Assembly (NCBI GenBank): GCA_002778785.1
Contig: PEZS01000001.1
Span: 1 to 64,000, forward strand
Reading direction: 5' to 3'
DNA: 64,000 nt
Origin: Bdellovibrionales bacterium CG10_big_fil_rev_8_21_14_0_10_45_34
GTDB taxonomy: Bacteria > Bdellovibrionota > Bdellovibrionia > Bdellovibrionales > 1-14-0-10-45-34
The translations under genes and the position numbers were made by a program. The notes below the pieces were generated by a model. The model was not told the origin of the DNA. It saw only the letters and a program-made list of their open reading frames with translations, and ran no database searches. How positions within the stretch are numbered: the stretch's first letter is position 1; each line of letters starts with the position of its first letter. Shown here piece after piece: positions 3,277 through 64,000 of this stretch.

Positions 3277-4227
3277 TTACCTTTGTAGATGTTGATTGAG
3301 GTCTATTAAGAGTACCTCAAGGCTCAGTGACTTGTCGATAGTCCCTTGCCAATCCCTGGCAACTTGCTGAGATTTTTGGATGAAATCGAAGGGGAGCCCC
3401 CGTACTCGAACCCAGTCTTCAAAATCTTTTTTTCGGTCTAGATGGTACCTTGGAGCAAACCCGTTTGAAATGAGCCACATATCTATCGTGATAGAGCTGA
3501 GAAGTTCTGTGAAATCGTCGATATCAGAGAGCTCCTTAGCTAACTCTTTGCACTGAGGTGCGAACTGAAAACTAGAAGCCGTCGGGCTGAATAAAGCAAA
3601 CATCTTCTCTTTAAGGGCTAAAAACTCTTGAGACTGCCAGCGATCAACCCTTTCTTGAGAACCTAATTCAATCTCTTTGATCCAGTTATAATGGCTGCTG
3701 ATATCATTTGCCGAGGCCGGAGGTATGCGAAAAACCAAACAACGAGAAACAATTGTCGATGCCAGAGAATGCACATTGTCAGTTAAGAGAAAGAAGAATG
3801 TGCTTTCATGCGGCTCTTCTAGGGCTTTAAGTAAAGCATTGTAGGCAGATGCTGTCATTTTGTGAGCTTCTTCAACGATAACAGCGCGGCTTTTGTGAAT
3901 ACTCCTGAGGCCAAGCCATAGCTTAAGCTCTCGAACGCTTTCAACTCCTATCGAGGAGGTGGCTGATTTGATGATAAACAAAGACTCGTGCGCAAATTGT
4001 GAAACTCGTCTGCAAGAGGGGCATGCGCAGTCAGAGGCCCCTACAGATGAGCCTTCAGCAGACTCACTGGTGGAGCCTTCAGAAACCGGACAAATAAGAG
4101 TTTTGAGGGTAGCTACAAGGAGTTTGTGCAAGGATTCTTTAGAGGAGCTTTGCAAAATCCAAGAACTCTTGGCTCGCTCAGATCTAAAAGATTTTAAAAA
4201 CAATCTTGTGCGCTCGTCTTGCATCAT
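3277..4227 (-). CDS. holB: DNA polymerase III delta' subunit (divergent)
   Basis: A clamp-loader delta'-like AAA+ protein of 316 residues, which would help load the sliding clamp during replication. It keeps the zinc-module cysteines (CACPSCRRV), the Walker-B-like IVEEAHKMT, the NALLKALEEP segment and the SRC sensor motif (LASTIVSRC). The usual P-loop near the N-terminus is replaced by a non-glycine sequence, as is normal for delta' subunits that do not bind ATP. The longer reading frame begins at a TTG. The better start is the ATG at 4227, whose ATGA overlaps the tmk stop. The N-terminal zinc module also carries an inserted Ser/Glu-rich stretch. Confidence 0.85.
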   Translation of the reverse strand: MMQDERTRLFLKSFRSERAKSSWILQSSSKESLHKLLVATLKTLICPVSEGSTSESAEGSSVGASDCACPSCRRVSQFAHESLFIIKSATSSIGVESVRELKLWLGLRSIHKSRAVIVEEAHKMTASAYNALLKALEEPHESTFFFLLTDNVHSLASTIVSRCLVFRIPPASANDISSHYNWIKEIELGSQERVDRWQSQEFLALKEKMFALFSPTASSFQFAPQCKELAKELSDIDDFTELLSSITIDMWLISNGFAPRYHLDRKKDFEDWVRVRGLPFDFIQKSQQVARDWQGTIDKSLSLEVLLIDLNQHLQR

Positions 4228-4865
4228 TTTTGGCGGCACCAATCTAAAGCACGAATGTGTGAAGTCAATTCGCTAACAAGTTTCAGACTGTCTTTTGCGG
4301 CGTCAAGCACCAGCCAATTCGGCTGCTCAGAAGCCAGCTTTAAAAAGCCTTCTCTCACTTTTGTGTGAAAGTCCGCGCTCTCCTGCTCCATGCGATCAAG
4401 GGTCTCTCCGTTATGTTGGGCCTTCGCTTGCTTGCGCTTTAAGCTTTCCTCAACAGAGAGATCAAGCAGAACTGTCAAGTCGGGCTTTAAGCTTTCAGTG
4501 GCAAAGTCATTGAGCCATTCCACGGTATTGATTCCTAAATTTCTAGCTACGCCTTGAAAAACCGTCGAGCTGGCAGAAAAACGATCACAAAGCACCCAAG
4601 TGCCATTTTTTAGCGCTGGCTTAATGAGCTGTTCAACATGCTGGGCTCTTGAAGCCTCGTAAAGCAGTAACTCTGCCCTTGGGACGGGCGCGGTCTTAGG
4701 ATCAACTCTCAAAATTATATCTCTGATTTCTTCAGAAAGGGGCGTGCCGCCTGGCTCCCGCGTGTGAATATAATTGATTCTTTCGTGGGTCAAAAAATGA
4801 GAAAGCCCCCGCATAAGAGTCGATTTTCCGGCCCCATCGAGCCCTTCAAAAACAATGAATTTCAC
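4224..4865 (-). CDS. tmk: Thymidylate kinase
   Basis: dTMP kinase (dTMP + ATP to dTDP + ADP), 213 residues from the preferred start. Motifs: P-loop FEGLDGAGKST, the DRF-type substrate loop CDRFSASSTVFQG, the TREPGGTPLSE segment that contacts dTMP, and a lid region with RKQAKAQ. The reading frame continues upstream to an ATG at 4889. An AGGAG ribosome site (4874-4878) sits eight bases before GTG 4865, and the conserved protein begins there, so GTG 4865 is chosen. It is the first gene of the operon with holB, ricT and tatD, and is divergent from the aldolase gene. The promoter region is only about 80 bp. Confidence 0.95.
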   Translation of the reverse strand: MKFIVFEGLDGAGKSTLMRGLSHFLTHERINYIHTREPGGTPLSEEIRDIILRVDPKTAPVPRAELLLYEASRAQHVEQLIKPALKNGTWVLCDRFSASSTVFQGVARNLGINTVEWLNDFATESLKPDLTVLLDLSVEESLKRKQAKAQHNGETLDRMEQESADFHTKVREGFLKLASEQPNWLVLDAAKDSLKLVSELTSHIRALDWCRQK

Positions 4866-58635: not shown

Positions 58636-58807
58636 AATGGAATTCCTCCTGCCAGCCAATTTCCAAATTCTCTGAGCCAACATTAGGAGGTCCCTTTGCA
58701 AACAAATTTGATTCCTTGGCCGATCGCCGGTCGAAGCTGGAATCTGACTTGATAAGTTGAGATACTTTAGCAAATGACTTCGAAAGATCTCTAATTGTAA
58801 TTTGCAT
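58625..58807 (-). CDS. 60-residue small protein, unknown
   Basis: ATG 58807 lies inside the last codons of the DAC-like gene (overlap 17 bases), with GGAG about six bases before it. The protein is soluble-looking and charged (DLSKSFAKVSQLIKSDSSF, SAKESNLFAKG) with a single Cys at the end (EEFHCGI). Its stop overlaps the start of the 49-residue membrane protein. The packed overlaps suggest translational coupling, which favours a real gene. I do not recognise it. Confidence 0.5.
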   Translation of the reverse strand: MQITIRDLSKSFAKVSQLIKSDSSFDRRSAKESNLFAKGPPNVGSENLEIGWQEEFHCGI

Positions 58808-59861
58808 TTGATACTCCGAGCTCGACGACCCCGTCTTGGGACTTGTATATAACGGCCGACAGTTGTTTTCCTAGGTGTGAACGCAGGACTTCAAAAGCTC
58901 TTCTTCTGGCTCCCCCCATAACTGATCCAGAATCTTTTGAATCAAGAGAAGAGCCCTTGATAAAGCAGCTATAGCCGACAATAGCACCCACTGTATCGAC
59001 CACCGTAATTCCATCCATACTCGCCATTCGACGAATCAGCTGACTCCAAGCAACTAATTGCTGATGGGAATCGCGCATATCTGATTCCATAAGTTTTGAA
59101 ATGCCAAATGAAACTTCGATTCGCTTTTCGAGTAAAATACCATCTCGAAAGAAAGAAGGAACGCTCTTTTGATGAGGAATCACGGCAAGTAAAGTTCCAT
59201 GGTTCGAGTGCAGAATGTCTACGCCCAATCGATTGTAAAAGGATTGCAGCTTACTTTTTAGTTCTGACGGTGCATCCTTTGTCGCAATCTTCATAAAATT
59301 TCGAATCATGTCTTTTGGATTTACGACCTCTTCGTGGTCTCCCATCATATTTACGAATTGAAAAAGCCCCAGGCCACACCGGACCTCAATAAAGCTCCGT
59401 CCGAGTCGGGCTAACCCAATAACTTTTAGATCTTTGTTTTTATTCTGTCTTAGCCGCTCAAATGGTGTCGGGTTTACAGGAGAAGGGTCTGTTCTAAATA
59501 TTCCATAGCTTATGGCCCTGTTTTTAAGTATTGCGTAGACCGCCCACTCGCGTCCTTCGGTAAGAGGTGCGGATTGTCTAAAGGCTTGATGTACCGTTTC
59601 CCGATTTTGCGGTCCTGATCCGATCAATATTGGATCAATGCCATGAGCAACCGATAGAATCTCCTCCACATCTTCTCCGATAAAGACCGTCGGAAAGAGG
59701 TCGGTACCTTCCTCGCGATACATCGATAAAACAACAATAAACTCCGCTAGTAAATCCGCAGCAATATCCGATTGCTGAAAATCAGAAACGAAGGGAGTGA
59801 TTTGTGACTGAAGGTAGCTACGAAAAGAAAGCACTCCCGTGTGATTTCTAAATTCTGCCAT
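58791..59861 (-). CDS. DisA_N/DAC-like nucleotide-domain protein
   Basis: 356 residues, no membrane segment. The C-terminal ~90 residues look like a diadenylate-cyclase (DisA_N) fold: DGITVVDTVGAIVGYSCFI stands where active enzymes have the DGA motif (here Asp283-Gly-Ile), and GGARRRAFEVL stands where they have the GxRHRA motif (here RRR, about 319-321). The replaced residues argue for a sensor or binding relative (such as the DACNV-type families) rather than an active c-di-AMP synthase. The first ~280 residues are an unrecognised mixed alpha/beta domain. It is flanked by two small membrane-protein genes and lies in the run from gcvH-like to maeB. The fold call is by motif only. Confidence 0.55.
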   Translation of the reverse strand: MAEFRNHTGVLSFRSYLQSQITPFVSDFQQSDIAADLLAEFIVVLSMYREEGTDLFPTVFIGEDVEEILSVAHGIDPILIGSGPQNRETVHQAFRQSAPLTEGREWAVYAILKNRAISYGIFRTDPSPVNPTPFERLRQNKNKDLKVIGLARLGRSFIEVRCGLGLFQFVNMMGDHEEVVNPKDMIRNFMKIATKDAPSELKSKLQSFYNRLGVDILHSNHGTLLAVIPHQKSVPSFFRDGILLEKRIEVSFGISKLMESDMRDSHQQLVAWSQLIRRMASMDGITVVDTVGAIVGYSCFIKGSSLDSKDSGSVMGGARRRAFEVLRSHLGKQLSAVIYKSQDGVVELGVSNANYN

Positions 59862-60462: not shown

Positions 60463-61137
60463 CTATTCCTTTATCCACATCGTCAGGTGGCCACTTTCAA
60501 TATGTCGACTCTCAACCATTTTCCAATCATTTGGTACGCGACCTCCGTAACCGTGGAAAGTAATGAGAACTTTTCCAGGCTTAGCCCATGCAAGTTGCCG
60601 AAAGACCTCTGAGGTGTACCGTGCATAGTTCCTCACCGCAAAATCAATATTGTTTTCAATTGTTCCAGATTCGTCATCGGCGATTTGCTCCTGGAATGGG
60701 TTGTAAAGGTAGTAAATGTCAAAAAGACTCCAATTTAGGTCAAGCATGTTCATTTGAACAATCGAAATATCTTTGAAGCCGTTGACATCAACAATGTGGT
60801 TCGCAATCTCGACGAAGTTTTCGCGTTGCTCGATGCCAAACACTTCATAGTTTGTCAAAATTCTTAGCAGAAAGCAGAGCTTTCCAACTCCGCAGCCGAT
60901 ATCGATTAAAGACCTTCGATCCATCGGTCTAATCCATTCTGAAATCTGTCGAGCCACATCGATCGAAGACCAATGAATGGCTGATTGTCGTTGATAGTAG
61001 GGGGGGAAAATTAGATCAAACTCTGAATCCTCAACAGGTTCTCCCGAGCGGAGCTTTTCGATGATTCCACTTTCCAAGAGGGGCTCGTTGGAAAACGTTT
61101 TAGAAAATCGGTCAAGATTTCGAGATAGACTATGCAT
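60463..61137 (-). CDS. SAM-dependent methyltransferase (class I)
   Basis: 224 residues from ATG 61137, which lies inside the end of the GcvH-like gene with GAGG upstream. The SAM-binding motif is LIDIGCGVGKLCFLL at about residues 85-99, followed by an acidic motif II position (VFGIEQREN). A YYLYNPFQEQI segment near residue 145 occupies the post-IV motif where substrate-selecting residues usually lie. The N-terminal ~60 residues are helical. The substrate is unknown. Its place between a lipoyl-carrier-like protein and a Fur regulator suggests a shared task. Confidence 0.75.
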   Translation of the reverse strand: MHSLSRNLDRFSKTFSNEPLLESGIIEKLRSGEPVEDSEFDLIFPPYYQRQSAIHWSSIDVARQISEWIRPMDRRSLIDIGCGVGKLCFLLRILTNYEVFGIEQRENFVEIANHIVDVNGFKDISIVQMNMLDLNWSLFDIYYLYNPFQEQIADDESGTIENNIDFAVRNYARYTSEVFRQLAWAKPGKVLITFHGYGGRVPNDWKMVESRHIESGHLTMWIKE

Positions 61138-61564
61138 CCAAAACCTCAATTTCCTGATCCAATTGATGAACTAGCGAATCCATTCCATTTTGGTTTCGAC
61201 ATTCCGATGCACGCACCAAAGTTGCCAAGTCTTTCTCATCGTTCATTTCAACAACAATGATCCATCCCCCGTTGAAAGGGTCGTCGTTCAAAATTCCTGG
61301 ATCCGTGAAAAGACTCTCATTTACTTCGATTAGTGTGCCCGAGACCGGACTAACGAAATCATGCGTAAATTTCACGGACTCAATTGAAAATAAACTCTCG
61401 CCCTTGTGGACCAGCTTTCCGATGTCAGGTAAATCTAAAAAAAGAACTTCACCAAGCCAACTCAAGCGAAAGTCTGTCAGTCCAATGGATACTAAATTTT
61501 CATCGACCCGGATCCATTCACCATTGTGAGAAAGATAGAGATTTTCTGAGACAGTAAAATTCAT
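61130..61564 (-). CDS. GcvH-like lipoyl-carrier protein
   Basis: 144 residues. The first ~125 match glycine-cleavage H protein: SHNGEWIRVDENLVSIGLTD at the start, and the lipoyl-lysine loop IESVKFTHDFVSPVSGTLIE with Lys65. NDDPFNGGWIIVVEM follows. The C-terminus carries ~20 extra residues (a Gln/Asp-rich helix). No gcvT, gcvP or lipoyl-attachment genes lie in the window, so it may be a specialised paralogue rather than part of a local glycine-cleavage system. It is first in the operon, with methyltransferase and Fur genes after it, and is preceded by the 21-bp inverted repeat. Other GcvH-like proteins serve in sulfur metabolism or lipoate relay. Confidence 0.85.
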   Translation of the reverse strand: MNFTVSENLYLSHNGEWIRVDENLVSIGLTDFRLSWLGEVLFLDLPDIGKLVHKGESLFSIESVKFTHDFVSPVSGTLIEVNESLFTDPGILNDDPFNGGWIIVVEMNDEKDLATLVRASECRNQNGMDSLVHQLDQEIEVLDA

Positions 61565-61882: not shown

Positions 61883-62062
61883 TTACTTAGTTTTCCCAAC
61901 AAGCTGCTGATTAACCGAAAGCATTCGAATTAGGCCCGTCCTCTTGCTCGAAAATGCCTTTTGTTGAATGTCTGTAAGAACCGAAACAAATACGCCAGTA
62001 ATCACCAAAATTCCAATCAGTCGAAATAGAATTGGAAATACTCTAAATACTATTGAATCCAT
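61883..62062 (-). CDS. 59-residue membrane protein
   Basis: ATG 62062 with GGAGG five bases upstream (CGCGGAGGCACCT). One long hydrophobic helix (about residues 4-29: IVFRVFPILFRLIGILVITGV), then a basic, Gln/Ser-containing tail (QQKAFSSKRTG, NQQLVGKTK) that should be cytoplasmic. I do not recognise it. It lies 67 bp after the LanM-like gene in the same direction, so it probably belongs to the kinase-peptide-LanM-like group. It is too short for the length cut-off of most gene finders. Confidence 0.6.
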   Translation of the reverse strand: MDSIVFRVFPILFRLIGILVITGVFVSVLTDIQQKAFSSKRTGLIRMLSVNQQLVGKTK

Positions 62063-62129
62063 AGGTGCCTCCGCGAAAAGGAAAGCTTCCTTTTTTGTGA
62101 AAGTCCAACAGTACAGTTGGGGTTTGGAG

Positions 62130-63176
62130 TCATTTCTTTAGGGTGAACGAGCTGCCCGTATATTCGTTTTTAAATGAGTTTTGATCGATTTTGATGGCCT
62201 TGTCATTCCAGCCGAAGGTCATCGGTTCTCTGAGATCGAAAATACGAGCTAAAAGAAATGTTCCTTGAGCCACCTTCTGCTCTAGTTGTGTTGGGCTTAT
62301 CAATAGGTCCGAGATCGGGCGCGCATGCCGCTCAACTTCCGATCTCATACCTCCTAAATCAGAGAGCACAGGGACTCCATCGAACGCTAGGCTCGAAATC
62401 CAATAGAGATCCCGCTCACCAATCAGTTTAAAAAAGTAAGGGACATCGCCGCGCTCAAGTTGAACTCGCTCTTCAAGCAATAAATCTTCAATACTAATTT
62501 CGCCAGCAAGATGGGCGAGGTAGTATTTGGTATTTCTTAAAATCACTCGAATCGGAACGGTGGAATTTATCTTCTCGCTAAGTAGTGATCGTAATGGATC
62601 TATGTTTTGAAAAACAATGTCGAAGAGATCGAAGTACCCAGCTAAAATTCTTCGTTTCTGATCCGCCGTAAACGAAGCGAGTCCGCTCCCGATGTTTTGT
62701 GCGCCCGATCTTTCAAACGACAGGTCTTTGTATGGTAAGAGCGCTGTTTCGCTGGGAAGCAATAAGTTGGTTAGAGCAACCTCAGCATCTATGACTTGAA
62801 GTCCGCCTTTTGTAGGGACCAAATTATGTTTATGAAGATCACGTATTCCAAAAATATATGAATACGCAAGAATGACACCAAATGAATAAAAGTGGGGGTC
62901 ATCTATCTCGATGCCTTCAGGGGAAACTATTTCTCGCGAAATGCCTTCCCAATCATTGATCCGTTGGATTTCTAAATTAAATAAGTATGACGATAGTGTT
63001 CTTGAATCATTACGACCACTTTTTTCAAAGAACGGTGCTAAGACGCTATCATTTCCAAAAAATAGTTGTTCCCAAAAAATGGAGCGAGGCTTCCGATACC
63101 AAGGACCGGAAGCCTGCTCAAAGCGTTGCACGCTTTTGCCGAAGTTATGTTTATCCGCGACAAAAGCAGATCGCAT
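62130..63176 (-). CDS. LanM-dehydratase-like kinase-fold protein
   Basis: 348 residues. The segment YSFGVILAYSYIFGIRDLHK followed by HN, and QVIDAEVALTNLL, resembles the kinase-fold active site of LanM dehydratases (DUF4135): Asp113, His115 and Asn118 of the DxHxxN motif, and Asp130-x-Glu132. This is a stand-alone domain of about a third the size of a LanM: there is no C-terminal cyclase and no zinc-ligand region. The early FWEQLFFGND region may hold the N-lobe. Family kinases phosphorylate Ser/Thr before dehydration, so this could phosphorylate or dehydrate a peptide or small molecule. ATG 63176 overlaps the stop of the 24-residue peptide gene as TAATG, indicating coupling. A remote aminoglycoside-kinase relationship is the alternative reading. 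Confidence 0.5.
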   Translation of the reverse strand: MRSAFVADKHNFGKSVQRFEQASGPWYRKPRSIFWEQLFFGNDSVLAPFFEKSGRNDSRTLSSYLFNLEIQRINDWEGISREIVSPEGIEIDDPHFYSFGVILAYSYIFGIRDLHKHNLVPTKGGLQVIDAEVALTNLLLPSETALLPYKDLSFERSGAQNIGSGLASFTADQKRRILAGYFDLFDIVFQNIDPLRSLLSEKINSTVPIRVILRNTKYYLAHLAGEISIEDLLLEERVQLERGDVPYFFKLIGERDLYWISSLAFDGVPVLSDLGGMRSEVERHARPISDLLISPTQLEQKVAQGTFLLARIFDLREPMTFGWNDKAIKIDQNSFKNEYTGSSFTLKK

Positions 63177-63250
63177 TAGTGACCACTTTCTCCGCCTTCA
63201 AAGGCCTCCGACTGAGTGATCAACTCGTCGAGATTAATTTCGATTGGCAT
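63176..63250 (-). CDS. 24-residue peptide, candidate precursor or signalling peptide
   Basis: A complete tiny gene: ATG 63250 has GGGAG six bases upstream (AAGGGAGTACCT), and the stop TAA (63178-63176) shares a base with the ATG of the LanM-like gene. The product begins MPIEINLDELITQ and ends in an acidic, glycine-rich tail (FEGGESGH) with Ser22 near the end and no cysteine. Its start lies inside the end of the histidine-kinase gene. The arrangement peptide then modifying-like enzyme resembles RiPP gene pairs, and the GG could mark a leader/core boundary. But the lack of Cys excludes lanthionine rings, and the peptide is unusually short. It may instead be a regulatory peptide or a coupling leader. 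Confidence 0.55.
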   Translation of the reverse strand: MPIEINLDELITQSEAFEGGESGH

Positions 63251-64000
63251 AGGTACTCCCTTCGTTTGATCCGCGATGACCAGAAATTTGGGCATCATCA
63301 GACCTGTTTAAAATTGAAATCTGCATATTTGCTAAATTGGATTTAGATATTAGGCGAATGCGATTTCGTCTTGCTTCCGAGATAACGGGATCACTATCAG
63401 CCATGCCCGTTATCAAACGAGCCTCTAGTGCGAGATCGTAGCGCGCAATAAGATCGATACCATTTGTGTGATCGGTCTTTAAGTCATAGTCCATGAAGTA
63501 GACTCTCGAACCAAAGTCTCCAGGTCCATGCTGCGCCATCCATAATTCAAATTCTTGCGCCGAATATAGGTTCACTCTCTTAACGCCACTGTCCTCGGGA
63601 ATCTTTAATTGCCAGCACTGGTGAATTAGCGGATCGTCGTCAAGAATCACGACAGTCTGAGTTTTATCTATTTCGATAGAAGGCAGTTCGCTTGCCTTCG
63701 CCGTTACCGGGAACTCTAATTTGACAGTTGTTCCGCTGCCAATCTCTGAATCGATCTCGATTTTTCCGCCAAGTGTTTGAATCGTAGAGAGTGCGTGCGA
63801 TAAACCTAGCCCTGTCCCATTCGGTTTTCCAAAAGTCGCGCCCTCTTTCATCAATAGAGGCAAACGATCTTTAGGAATTCCACATCCTGTATCTTTTATG
63901 GATATAGCGGCTTGATTCTTGGTTAGTTGGACAGAAACCTCAATTTTGCCTTTAGCAGAGATAGATTCTCCTGCATTGTCTAAAATATTTCTAAACATCG
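63234..64000 (-). CDS. Hybrid histidine kinase, 5' end beyond the window
   Basis: The 3' part of a gene running in from the right edge, at least 255 residues. The visible part starts in the HATPase_c domain: the N box RNILDNAGESI, the G1 motif IKDTGCGIP and the G2 motif GTGLGLSHAL. It then enters a receiver-like domain with acidic residues (VVILDDDPLIHQCW), the phospho-acceptor position in YFMDYDL, a Thr position and a Lys in RLISKSNL. The sensor and dimerisation regions lie outside the window. The stop lies inside the peptide gene (overlap 17 bases). It probably senses a signal and passes phosphate to a receiver, but no separate response regulator is visible. Confidence 0.85.
   Translation of the reverse strand, partial: MFRNILDNAGESISAKGKIEVSVQLTKNQAAISIKDTGCGIPKDRLPLLMKEGATFGKPNGTGLGLSHALSTIQTLGGKIEIDSEIGSGTTVKLEFPVTAKASELPSIEIDKTQTVVILDDDPLIHQCWQLKIPEDSGVKRVNLYSAQEFELWMAQHGPGDFGSRVYFMDYDLKTDHTNGIDLIARYDLALEARLITGMADSDPVISEARRNRIRLISKSNLANMQISILNRSDDAQISGHRGSNEGSTYANRN

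Follow-up and report, generated by a model that had tools for sequence, protein, structure and literature searches.

Gram-positive bacteria are well known for modified peptide signals; their two-component peptide autoinducer systems combine a precursor, its modifying enzyme, an exporter and a histidine kinase in one operon. Another route is exemplified by the pheromone-binding protein PrgZ, which supplies an ABC importer and a receptor in the cytoplasm. Among modifying enzymes that resemble LanM, PoyF belongs to a multi-enzyme pathway acting on a long precursor, that of polytheonamide.

LanM-like dehydratases without a cyclase have been described before: PoyF, which has no cyclization domain (PMC9505594), and EmbM (PMC9259500) are the closest known enzymes to the one considered here. 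EmbM, whose layout is similar, proved to be phosphorylation-only, a behaviour attributed to its mutated elimination residues, and it illustrates that a dehydration predicted from homology can fail (PMC9259500).

The locus described here lies at the end of the window, that is, the whole stretch of 64,000 nucleotides that was analysed. With EmbM and its precursor EmbA from ‘Ca. Eudoremicrobium malaspinii’, the source of phospeptin (PMC9259500), it has in common a cyclase-less LanM dehydration domain, a Cys-free precursor and a linear product, the latter being a prediction in our case; as in EmbM, the stand-alone dehydration domain is the single recognisable modifying enzyme of the operon. The mutated elimination residues of EmbM leave phosphothreonine, whereas those of the window enzyme are intact. 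The leader of EmbA is of Nif11 type and has a Gly-Gly site (PMC9505594), whereas the window precursor, with its 24 residues and the motif EINLDEL, is too short for a Nif11-like leader. A histidine kinase and a response regulator are mentioned near EmbM, whereas a cassette of binding protein, MFS protein and sigma54 activator with a motif-bearing micro-precursor was not reported (PMC9259500, PMC9505594). PoyF, unlike the presumable function of the window system, is not part of a signalling cassette. The dehydratase fold and nine catalytic residues are common to the window enzyme and the class II lanthipeptide synthetases (LanM) CylM (PDB 5DZT) and LicM2 (6ST5), in contrast to which it is about a third of the size and has no cyclase, its putative substrate has no Cys in the core and its genome encodes no LanC. 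With PrgZ of conjugative plasmids (PDB 4FAJ), the system shares an OppA-type binding protein for a (here putative) peptide signal near conjugation genes; the partner of this protein, though, is a membrane histidine kinase, and a permease was not seen. As in the Gram-positive autoinducer systems, precursor, enzyme, exporter and kinase are found together, with likely positive feedback; the enzyme type, export by MFS protein or Sec, the periplasmic binding-protein receptor and the sigma54 activator are different.

Layout of the locus and the full operon

The sequence and its open reading frames confirm the layout given in the original prediction. Positions of the four genes in the window and of three further genes on the same contig are as follows:

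61883 to 62062, minus strand: small membrane protein, 59 aa, with GGAGG upstream; a neighbour only
62130 to 63176, minus strand: stand-alone LanM-type dehydratase (DUF4135), 348 aa, without cyclase, as assigned by Pfam, AlphaFold model, PDB matches and residue mapping
63176 to 63250, minus strand: precursor peptide, 24 aa, with its ATG at 63250 preceded by AAGGGAG
63234 to 64000, minus strand: 3' part of the hybrid histidine kinase gene; the whole gene (contig 63234-65021, 595 aa) runs beyond the window
contig 66526-65018, minus strand, outside the window: SBP_bac_5 binding protein
contig 67715-66507, minus strand, outside the window: MFS protein
contig 68737-67682, minus strand, outside the window: sigma54 activator remnant

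The end of the kinase gene (63234) overlaps the 24-codon gene by 17 nt, with the claimed GGGAG ribosome site contained in AAGGGAG, and the TAATG at 63176 is such that the stop of the peptide gene and the start of the dehydratase gene have one base in common, again as described. The operon is cut by the window edge, and its remaining genes were found further along the same contig (locus L002), in the order sigma54 activator remnant, MFS protein, SBP_bac_5 binding protein, hybrid histidine kinase, peptide and 348-aa protein. The MFS and binding-protein genes overlap by 20 nt and the binding-protein and kinase genes by 4 nt, which argues for a single transcript.

The small membrane protein, which the original prediction had grouped with the system, is a real open reading frame with a real GGAGG; its membership was rejected, since it matches no Pfam family, has no homologue near any related dehydratase and is thus not conserved with the cassette. 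Elsewhere in the window, a methyltransferase gene (60463-61149), whose product weakly resembles the defence protein MADS2 (E 1e-9), overlaps a gene for a GcvH-like lipoyl protein (61130-61564), with a Fur-family gene nearby, and a 356-aa protein without Pfam match is encoded at 58791-59861.

The dehydratase and its precursor peptide

The 348-aa protein matches the Pfam family DUF4135 (PF13575, LanM dehydratase domain) with E 4.9e-13, as do all members of the enzyme family that were scanned (13/13); its match to the NCBIfam LanM family is local only and far below the cut-off. An AlphaFold model built from 13 sequences (pLDDT 86.2, pTM 0.90) finds CylM as its best PDB match (E 5.8e-9, Z 17.4 over 286 residues) and LicM2 as the second, followed by PI3K/VPS34 kinases with Z about 11. 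Profile and structure thus favour the LanM/PI3K-type kinase fold that had been proposed from the motifs of DxHxxN...DxE type, here D113-L-H115-x-x-N118 and D130-x-E132, over an unrelated fold. In CylM, mutagenesis has established residues for phosphorylation (K274, D347, H349, N352, D364) and for elimination (D252, H254, R506, T512) (PMC4550811). Placed on the 348-aa protein by profile alignment, the former correspond to K29, D113, H115, N118 and D130, and the latter to D8, H10, R210 and T216; the window protein has all nine, giving an intact predicted active site, and almost all are kept in the other aligned homologues. The exception is the enzyme of locus L022, which has lost several catalytic residues and looks degenerate.

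The protein ends at 348 aa without a match to PF05147, so that the description as short and cyclase-less holds, and no LanC-like protein was found anywhere in the genome. A LanC acting in trans was considered and is ruled out by this absence. Judged by sequence and model, the enzyme is a stand-alone LanM-type dehydratase domain. A “modifying or phosphorylating enzyme” had been proposed: the modifying role is supported, and plain phosphorylation appears less probable than dehydration, since the elimination residues are kept. Because these residues are intact, unlike those of EmbM, a dehydrated linear peptide is predicted.

Of 140 genomes from the same order, 18 encode homologues of the enzyme, with 21 loci giving strong matches, and nine further genomes of the phylum sample encode them too; a contig scan with the single window protein yielded only one distant locus, in Myxococcales. 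At the thresholds used, no homologues were found on plasmids, phages or viral contigs, and neither the dehydratase nor the kinase or the MFS protein has a good match among anti-phage defence families.

The 24-aa peptide, MPIEINLDELITQSEAFEGGESGH, consists of the leader motif EINLDEL and a Ser/Gly tail, with a net charge of about -6. It is free of Cys, the ground on which the original prediction had excluded classical lanthipeptide chemistry. Its Ser22 is Ser in all five nearest relatives. The expectation that the frame be conserved beside homologues of the enzyme is borne out: a short ORF lies directly upstream of the enzyme gene at 21/21 loci of the order. Nearly all upstream peptides contain a motif like [IV][DN]L[DEK]xLE or [ILVF][DN][LIV]xx[LIV], followed by a short Ser/Thr/Gly-rich tail; L025 has IIELSEIE. 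Of 40 short ORFs directly preceding homologues, 20 contain the leader motif, compared with 58 of 4790 at other positions, a forty-fold contrast, for which the Fisher p of 1e-26 is optimistic, since the motif was defined after the peptides were seen. Ser and Thr make up 29.5% of the last ten precursor residues compared with 13.3% in neighbouring proteins (p 1.6e-9), and at least one lies within the last six residues in all 20 precursors counted. In three close relatives, dN of the precursor is far below dS, the last 35 codons having 0 amino-acid changes and 3-6 synonymous ones: the precursors of close relatives are under purifying selection. A precursor gene with a leader motif is thus conserved beside its maturase, the pairing known from RiPPs, and on the comparative sequence data the 24-codon gene is a true precursor gene.

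This bears directly on the notion that the frame is a translational coupling device only and that the enzyme acts on another substrate. The overlap of the frame with both its neighbours in the window, including the TAATG, is what such a device would look like. The motif and the Ser/Thr-rich tail are, in contrast, also kept where the precursor, of 66-113 aa, bears a signal peptide and its gene is in most cases free of overlap with that of the enzyme, which together with the dN well below dS makes a pure coupling device very improbable.

Cassette partners, regulation and genomic context

The binding protein of the window's operon matches PF00496 (SBP_bac_5) with E 1.1e-19, and its solved relatives are mostly peptide-binding proteins of the OppA family, PrgZ among them. 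An OppA-family binding protein is encoded at 20/21 loci of the order and additionally at L067, L068 and L076; binding protein and motif precursor occur together at 23 of 24 loci, and the former is found at none of the RiPP-type family members. No ABC permease was seen alongside it among the cassette neighbours identified, which, together with the co-occurrence, is in keeping with a receptor dedicated to the cognate peptide. A histidine kinase adjoins nearly all loci with a binding protein where the contig is long enough. The window kinase (HATPase_c, E 1.8e-18 by Pfam) has two predicted TM helices and a periplasmic segment of ~95 aa, as read from its sequence, and its tail bears the hallmarks of a receiver (DDD, D57 and K106 in tail numbering), which are conserved in relatives; Pfam calls no receiver in the window copy.

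Two export routes appear to be used alternatively. An MFS-type gene is present at 13/14 loci whose precursor has no signal peptide and at 0/6 loci whose precursor has a hydrophobic N-terminal (Sec) signal; among independent loci, such a split would have a probability of 2e-4. Independence is only partial here: both labels are clustered on the tree, so that the exclusivity is partly inherited, and the main independent switch, L067, has its MFS gene at a contig edge. The assignment of L025 rests on 12 predicted TM segments, with no match in Pfam. By either route, the peptide seems destined for export from the cytoplasm. As in autoinducer systems, one cassette provides a precursor, a route of export and a histidine kinase, and the peptide-signalling system suggested by the original prediction gains support from the exporter, the OppA-like binding protein and the sigma54 activator, all conserved and encoded outside the window, from which a signalling function would follow by inference.

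Two genomes encode a pair of divergent cassettes with different peptide tails (L015 and L016 in G058; L058 and L059 in G104), as expected for separate signal types. At two loci, MFS exporter and OppA-like protein are fused into a protein of about 880 aa beside the dehydratase (L065:1127-3769, confirmed by Pfam, and L076:4784-7432). Two genes are split into two open pieces each, a binding protein (L015:4510-6033) and a dehydratase (L076:7429-8471); they may be decayed copies or assembly errors.

In relatives with a complete cassette, the first gene encodes a receiver-bearing sigma54 activator. A -24/-12 site, TGGCAY-N5-TCGCT, precedes the activator start by exactly 42 nt in L015, L016, L058 and L060, and is located just before the likely start in L059; exact matches number only 2-9 per genome tested. 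The position of the site before the cassette's own activator suggests positive feedback. The window's genome has suffered damage here: homology of its activator begins at about residue 146 of the relatives, so that the receiver is missing, an in-frame TAG lies within the AAA+ domain, and virB4 on the other strand is without about its first 206 codons. The activator remnant (C1:67682-68737; L002:12683-13738, minus strand) abuts the truncated virB4 (C1:68696-70582; L002:13697-15583, plus strand). One deletion that joined the two, removing the promoter and early T4SS genes, would explain both truncations. The reading frames of MFS protein, binding protein, kinase, peptide and dehydratase all remain open. 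For this particular copy, the original prediction thus needs correcting, as the activator is broken; with activator and promoter lost, the copy may be a relic or rewired, either silent or under other control.

To the right of the cassette lie genes for VirB4, TrbL/VirB6, TrbI/VirB10, an FtsK-type ATPase and a tyrosine integrase, which places the cassette in or beside a decayed integrative conjugative element. The integrase gene (C1:80864-82444; L078:5965-7545) ends 7 nt from tRNA-Arg(CCT), with the T4SS and FtsK-type genes to its left, and this is probably the right end of the element. A search among 16-mers for the left border, in the form of another att copy of the 3' end of tRNA-Arg, found none. 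In about five lineages (L002, L015, L016, L020/L021/L023 and L060), VirB4 genes are situated close to the cassette, a proximity that would arise by accident with a probability of about 4e-5 to 3e-4, assuming a 2-3% chance per locus. No convincing sigma54 sites precede T4SS genes in the cassette loci examined, so that control of conjugation by the cassette, for which proximity speaks, is an idea and not a result.

Family members outside the cassette have ordinary RiPP surroundings. Upstream of the lone DUF4135 enzyme of L069, three nearly identical genes (1644-2054, 2446-2856 and 3888-4298) encode 136-aa precursor-like proteins with a Gly-Gly leader and a hydrophobic core, likely forming a RiPP cluster. 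A second lone-DUF4135 group (L071, L072, L073, L074 and L075) has glycosyltransferase-like and PqqD-like neighbours; proteins of the PqqD-like and radical SAM types occur at L071, L072 and L073, the radical SAM protein at L073, and the precursor-like peptides of L071, L072 and L074 have Cys-containing tails. In Myxococcales, a lone DUF4135 gene (L026:4956-6522) adjoins a gene for a precursor-like protein of 130 aa that has a GG leader and repeated S-C-H-G-E motifs; the equivalent of CylM H349 is Leu in its product. With such surroundings, the enzymes look like RiPP dehydratases by descent, of which the signalling cassette is a specialised use.

Proposed mechanism, alternatives and meaning

The locus is probably, albeit with considerable reservation, the end of a peptide-autoinducer operon, whose exported dehydrated peptide is sensed by the binding protein and the kinase. 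Gene order, fold, catalytic residues, conservation of the precursor, the promoter in relatives and the split between exporter and signal peptide were read from sequence or model; chemistry, export, sensing and regulon we infer as follows: (i) the very short precursor, with its leader motif [IV][DN]L[DE]xL and a Ser/Thr/Gly tail of about 10-14 residues, would be bound by the stand-alone dehydratase; (ii) the enzyme would phosphorylate Ser/Thr of the tail, most likely Ser22, and eliminate the phosphate to give a linear dehydroalanine peptide, there being neither cyclase nor Cys; (iii) the MFS protein would export the modified peptide, whereas sister systems would use the Sec signal peptide of the precursor instead; (iv) outside, the OppA-type binding protein, which lacks an ABC permease, may capture the mature peptide and present it to the hybrid histidine kinase; (v) the kinase would control the receiver-bearing sigma54 activator, which may drive its own operon from the -24/-12 promoter in positive feedback, and possibly the neighbouring conjugation genes too. 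No dedicated leader peptidase was identified, which counts against this explanation.

The main rival, unlikely as we consider it, keeps the same signalling cassette and lets the enzyme stop after phosphorylation, the signal being a linear phosphopeptide as in phospeptin. Cyclase-less EmbM indeed turns a Cys-free precursor into a diphosphorylated end product (PMC9259500, PMC9505594), and the equivalent of T216 is Ser in L019, L065 and L066 and Asp in L022; it is the intact elimination residues of the window protein and most homologues, those of EmbM being reported as mutated, that tip the balance towards dehydration. Somewhat less probable still is an antimicrobial RiPP, with binding protein, kinase and MFS protein serving autoinduction or self-protection. 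Lanthipeptides are often autoregulated, and the GG-leader or Cys-rich precursors beside the family members at L069, L071, L072 and L074 are typical of RiPP clusters. The window peptide, in contrast, is acidic, with about 10-14 residues after the leader motif and neither Cys nor rings; no lanthipeptide-type immunity ABC transporter is among the neighbours identified, and paralogous cassettes that diverge, each with its own sensor, are more suggestive of signal types.

Binding protein and kinase might instead respond to peptides of the environment, such as those of prey or nutrients, the modified peptide being the output of the response. OppA-family proteins bind many peptides, as this would require; the pairing of binding protein and motif precursor at all but one of the 24 loci and at none of the RiPP-type ones, with no permease seen, speaks for a cognate ligand and makes environmental sensing improbable.

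If the autoinducer operon is taken as the preferred reading, a wider proposal can be put forward tentatively, as a possibility that falls well short of the reading itself: a Gram-negative-type pheromone class, in which a short linear dehydroamino-acid peptide made by a lone LanM enzyme is perceived by an orphan OppA-type receptor with a kinase, induces itself through sigma54, travels with conjugative elements in several lineages and controls their transfer. In the literature searched (on DUF4135, and on lanthipeptides and peptide signalling in Bdellovibrio), there was no description of a motif precursor with binding protein, kinase and sigma54 activator. One published genome-mining screen discarded DUF4135 proteins shorter than 500 residues (PMC10676384) and another started from LanC (PMC7268733); both would miss the window system by design.

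The conserved exporter, binding protein, sensor and switch have the look of a system for chemical messaging in Gram-negative-type bacteria that has not been described before and is often situated next to conjugation genes. If true, this would give lone LanM dehydratases a natural role and tie a peptide signal to conjugation in a way that can be tested; with 24 aa and 348 aa, precursor and enzyme would also be a very short pair to study and engineer. Should a signalling function be shown, the combination may deserve its own class among modified-peptide autoinducer systems.
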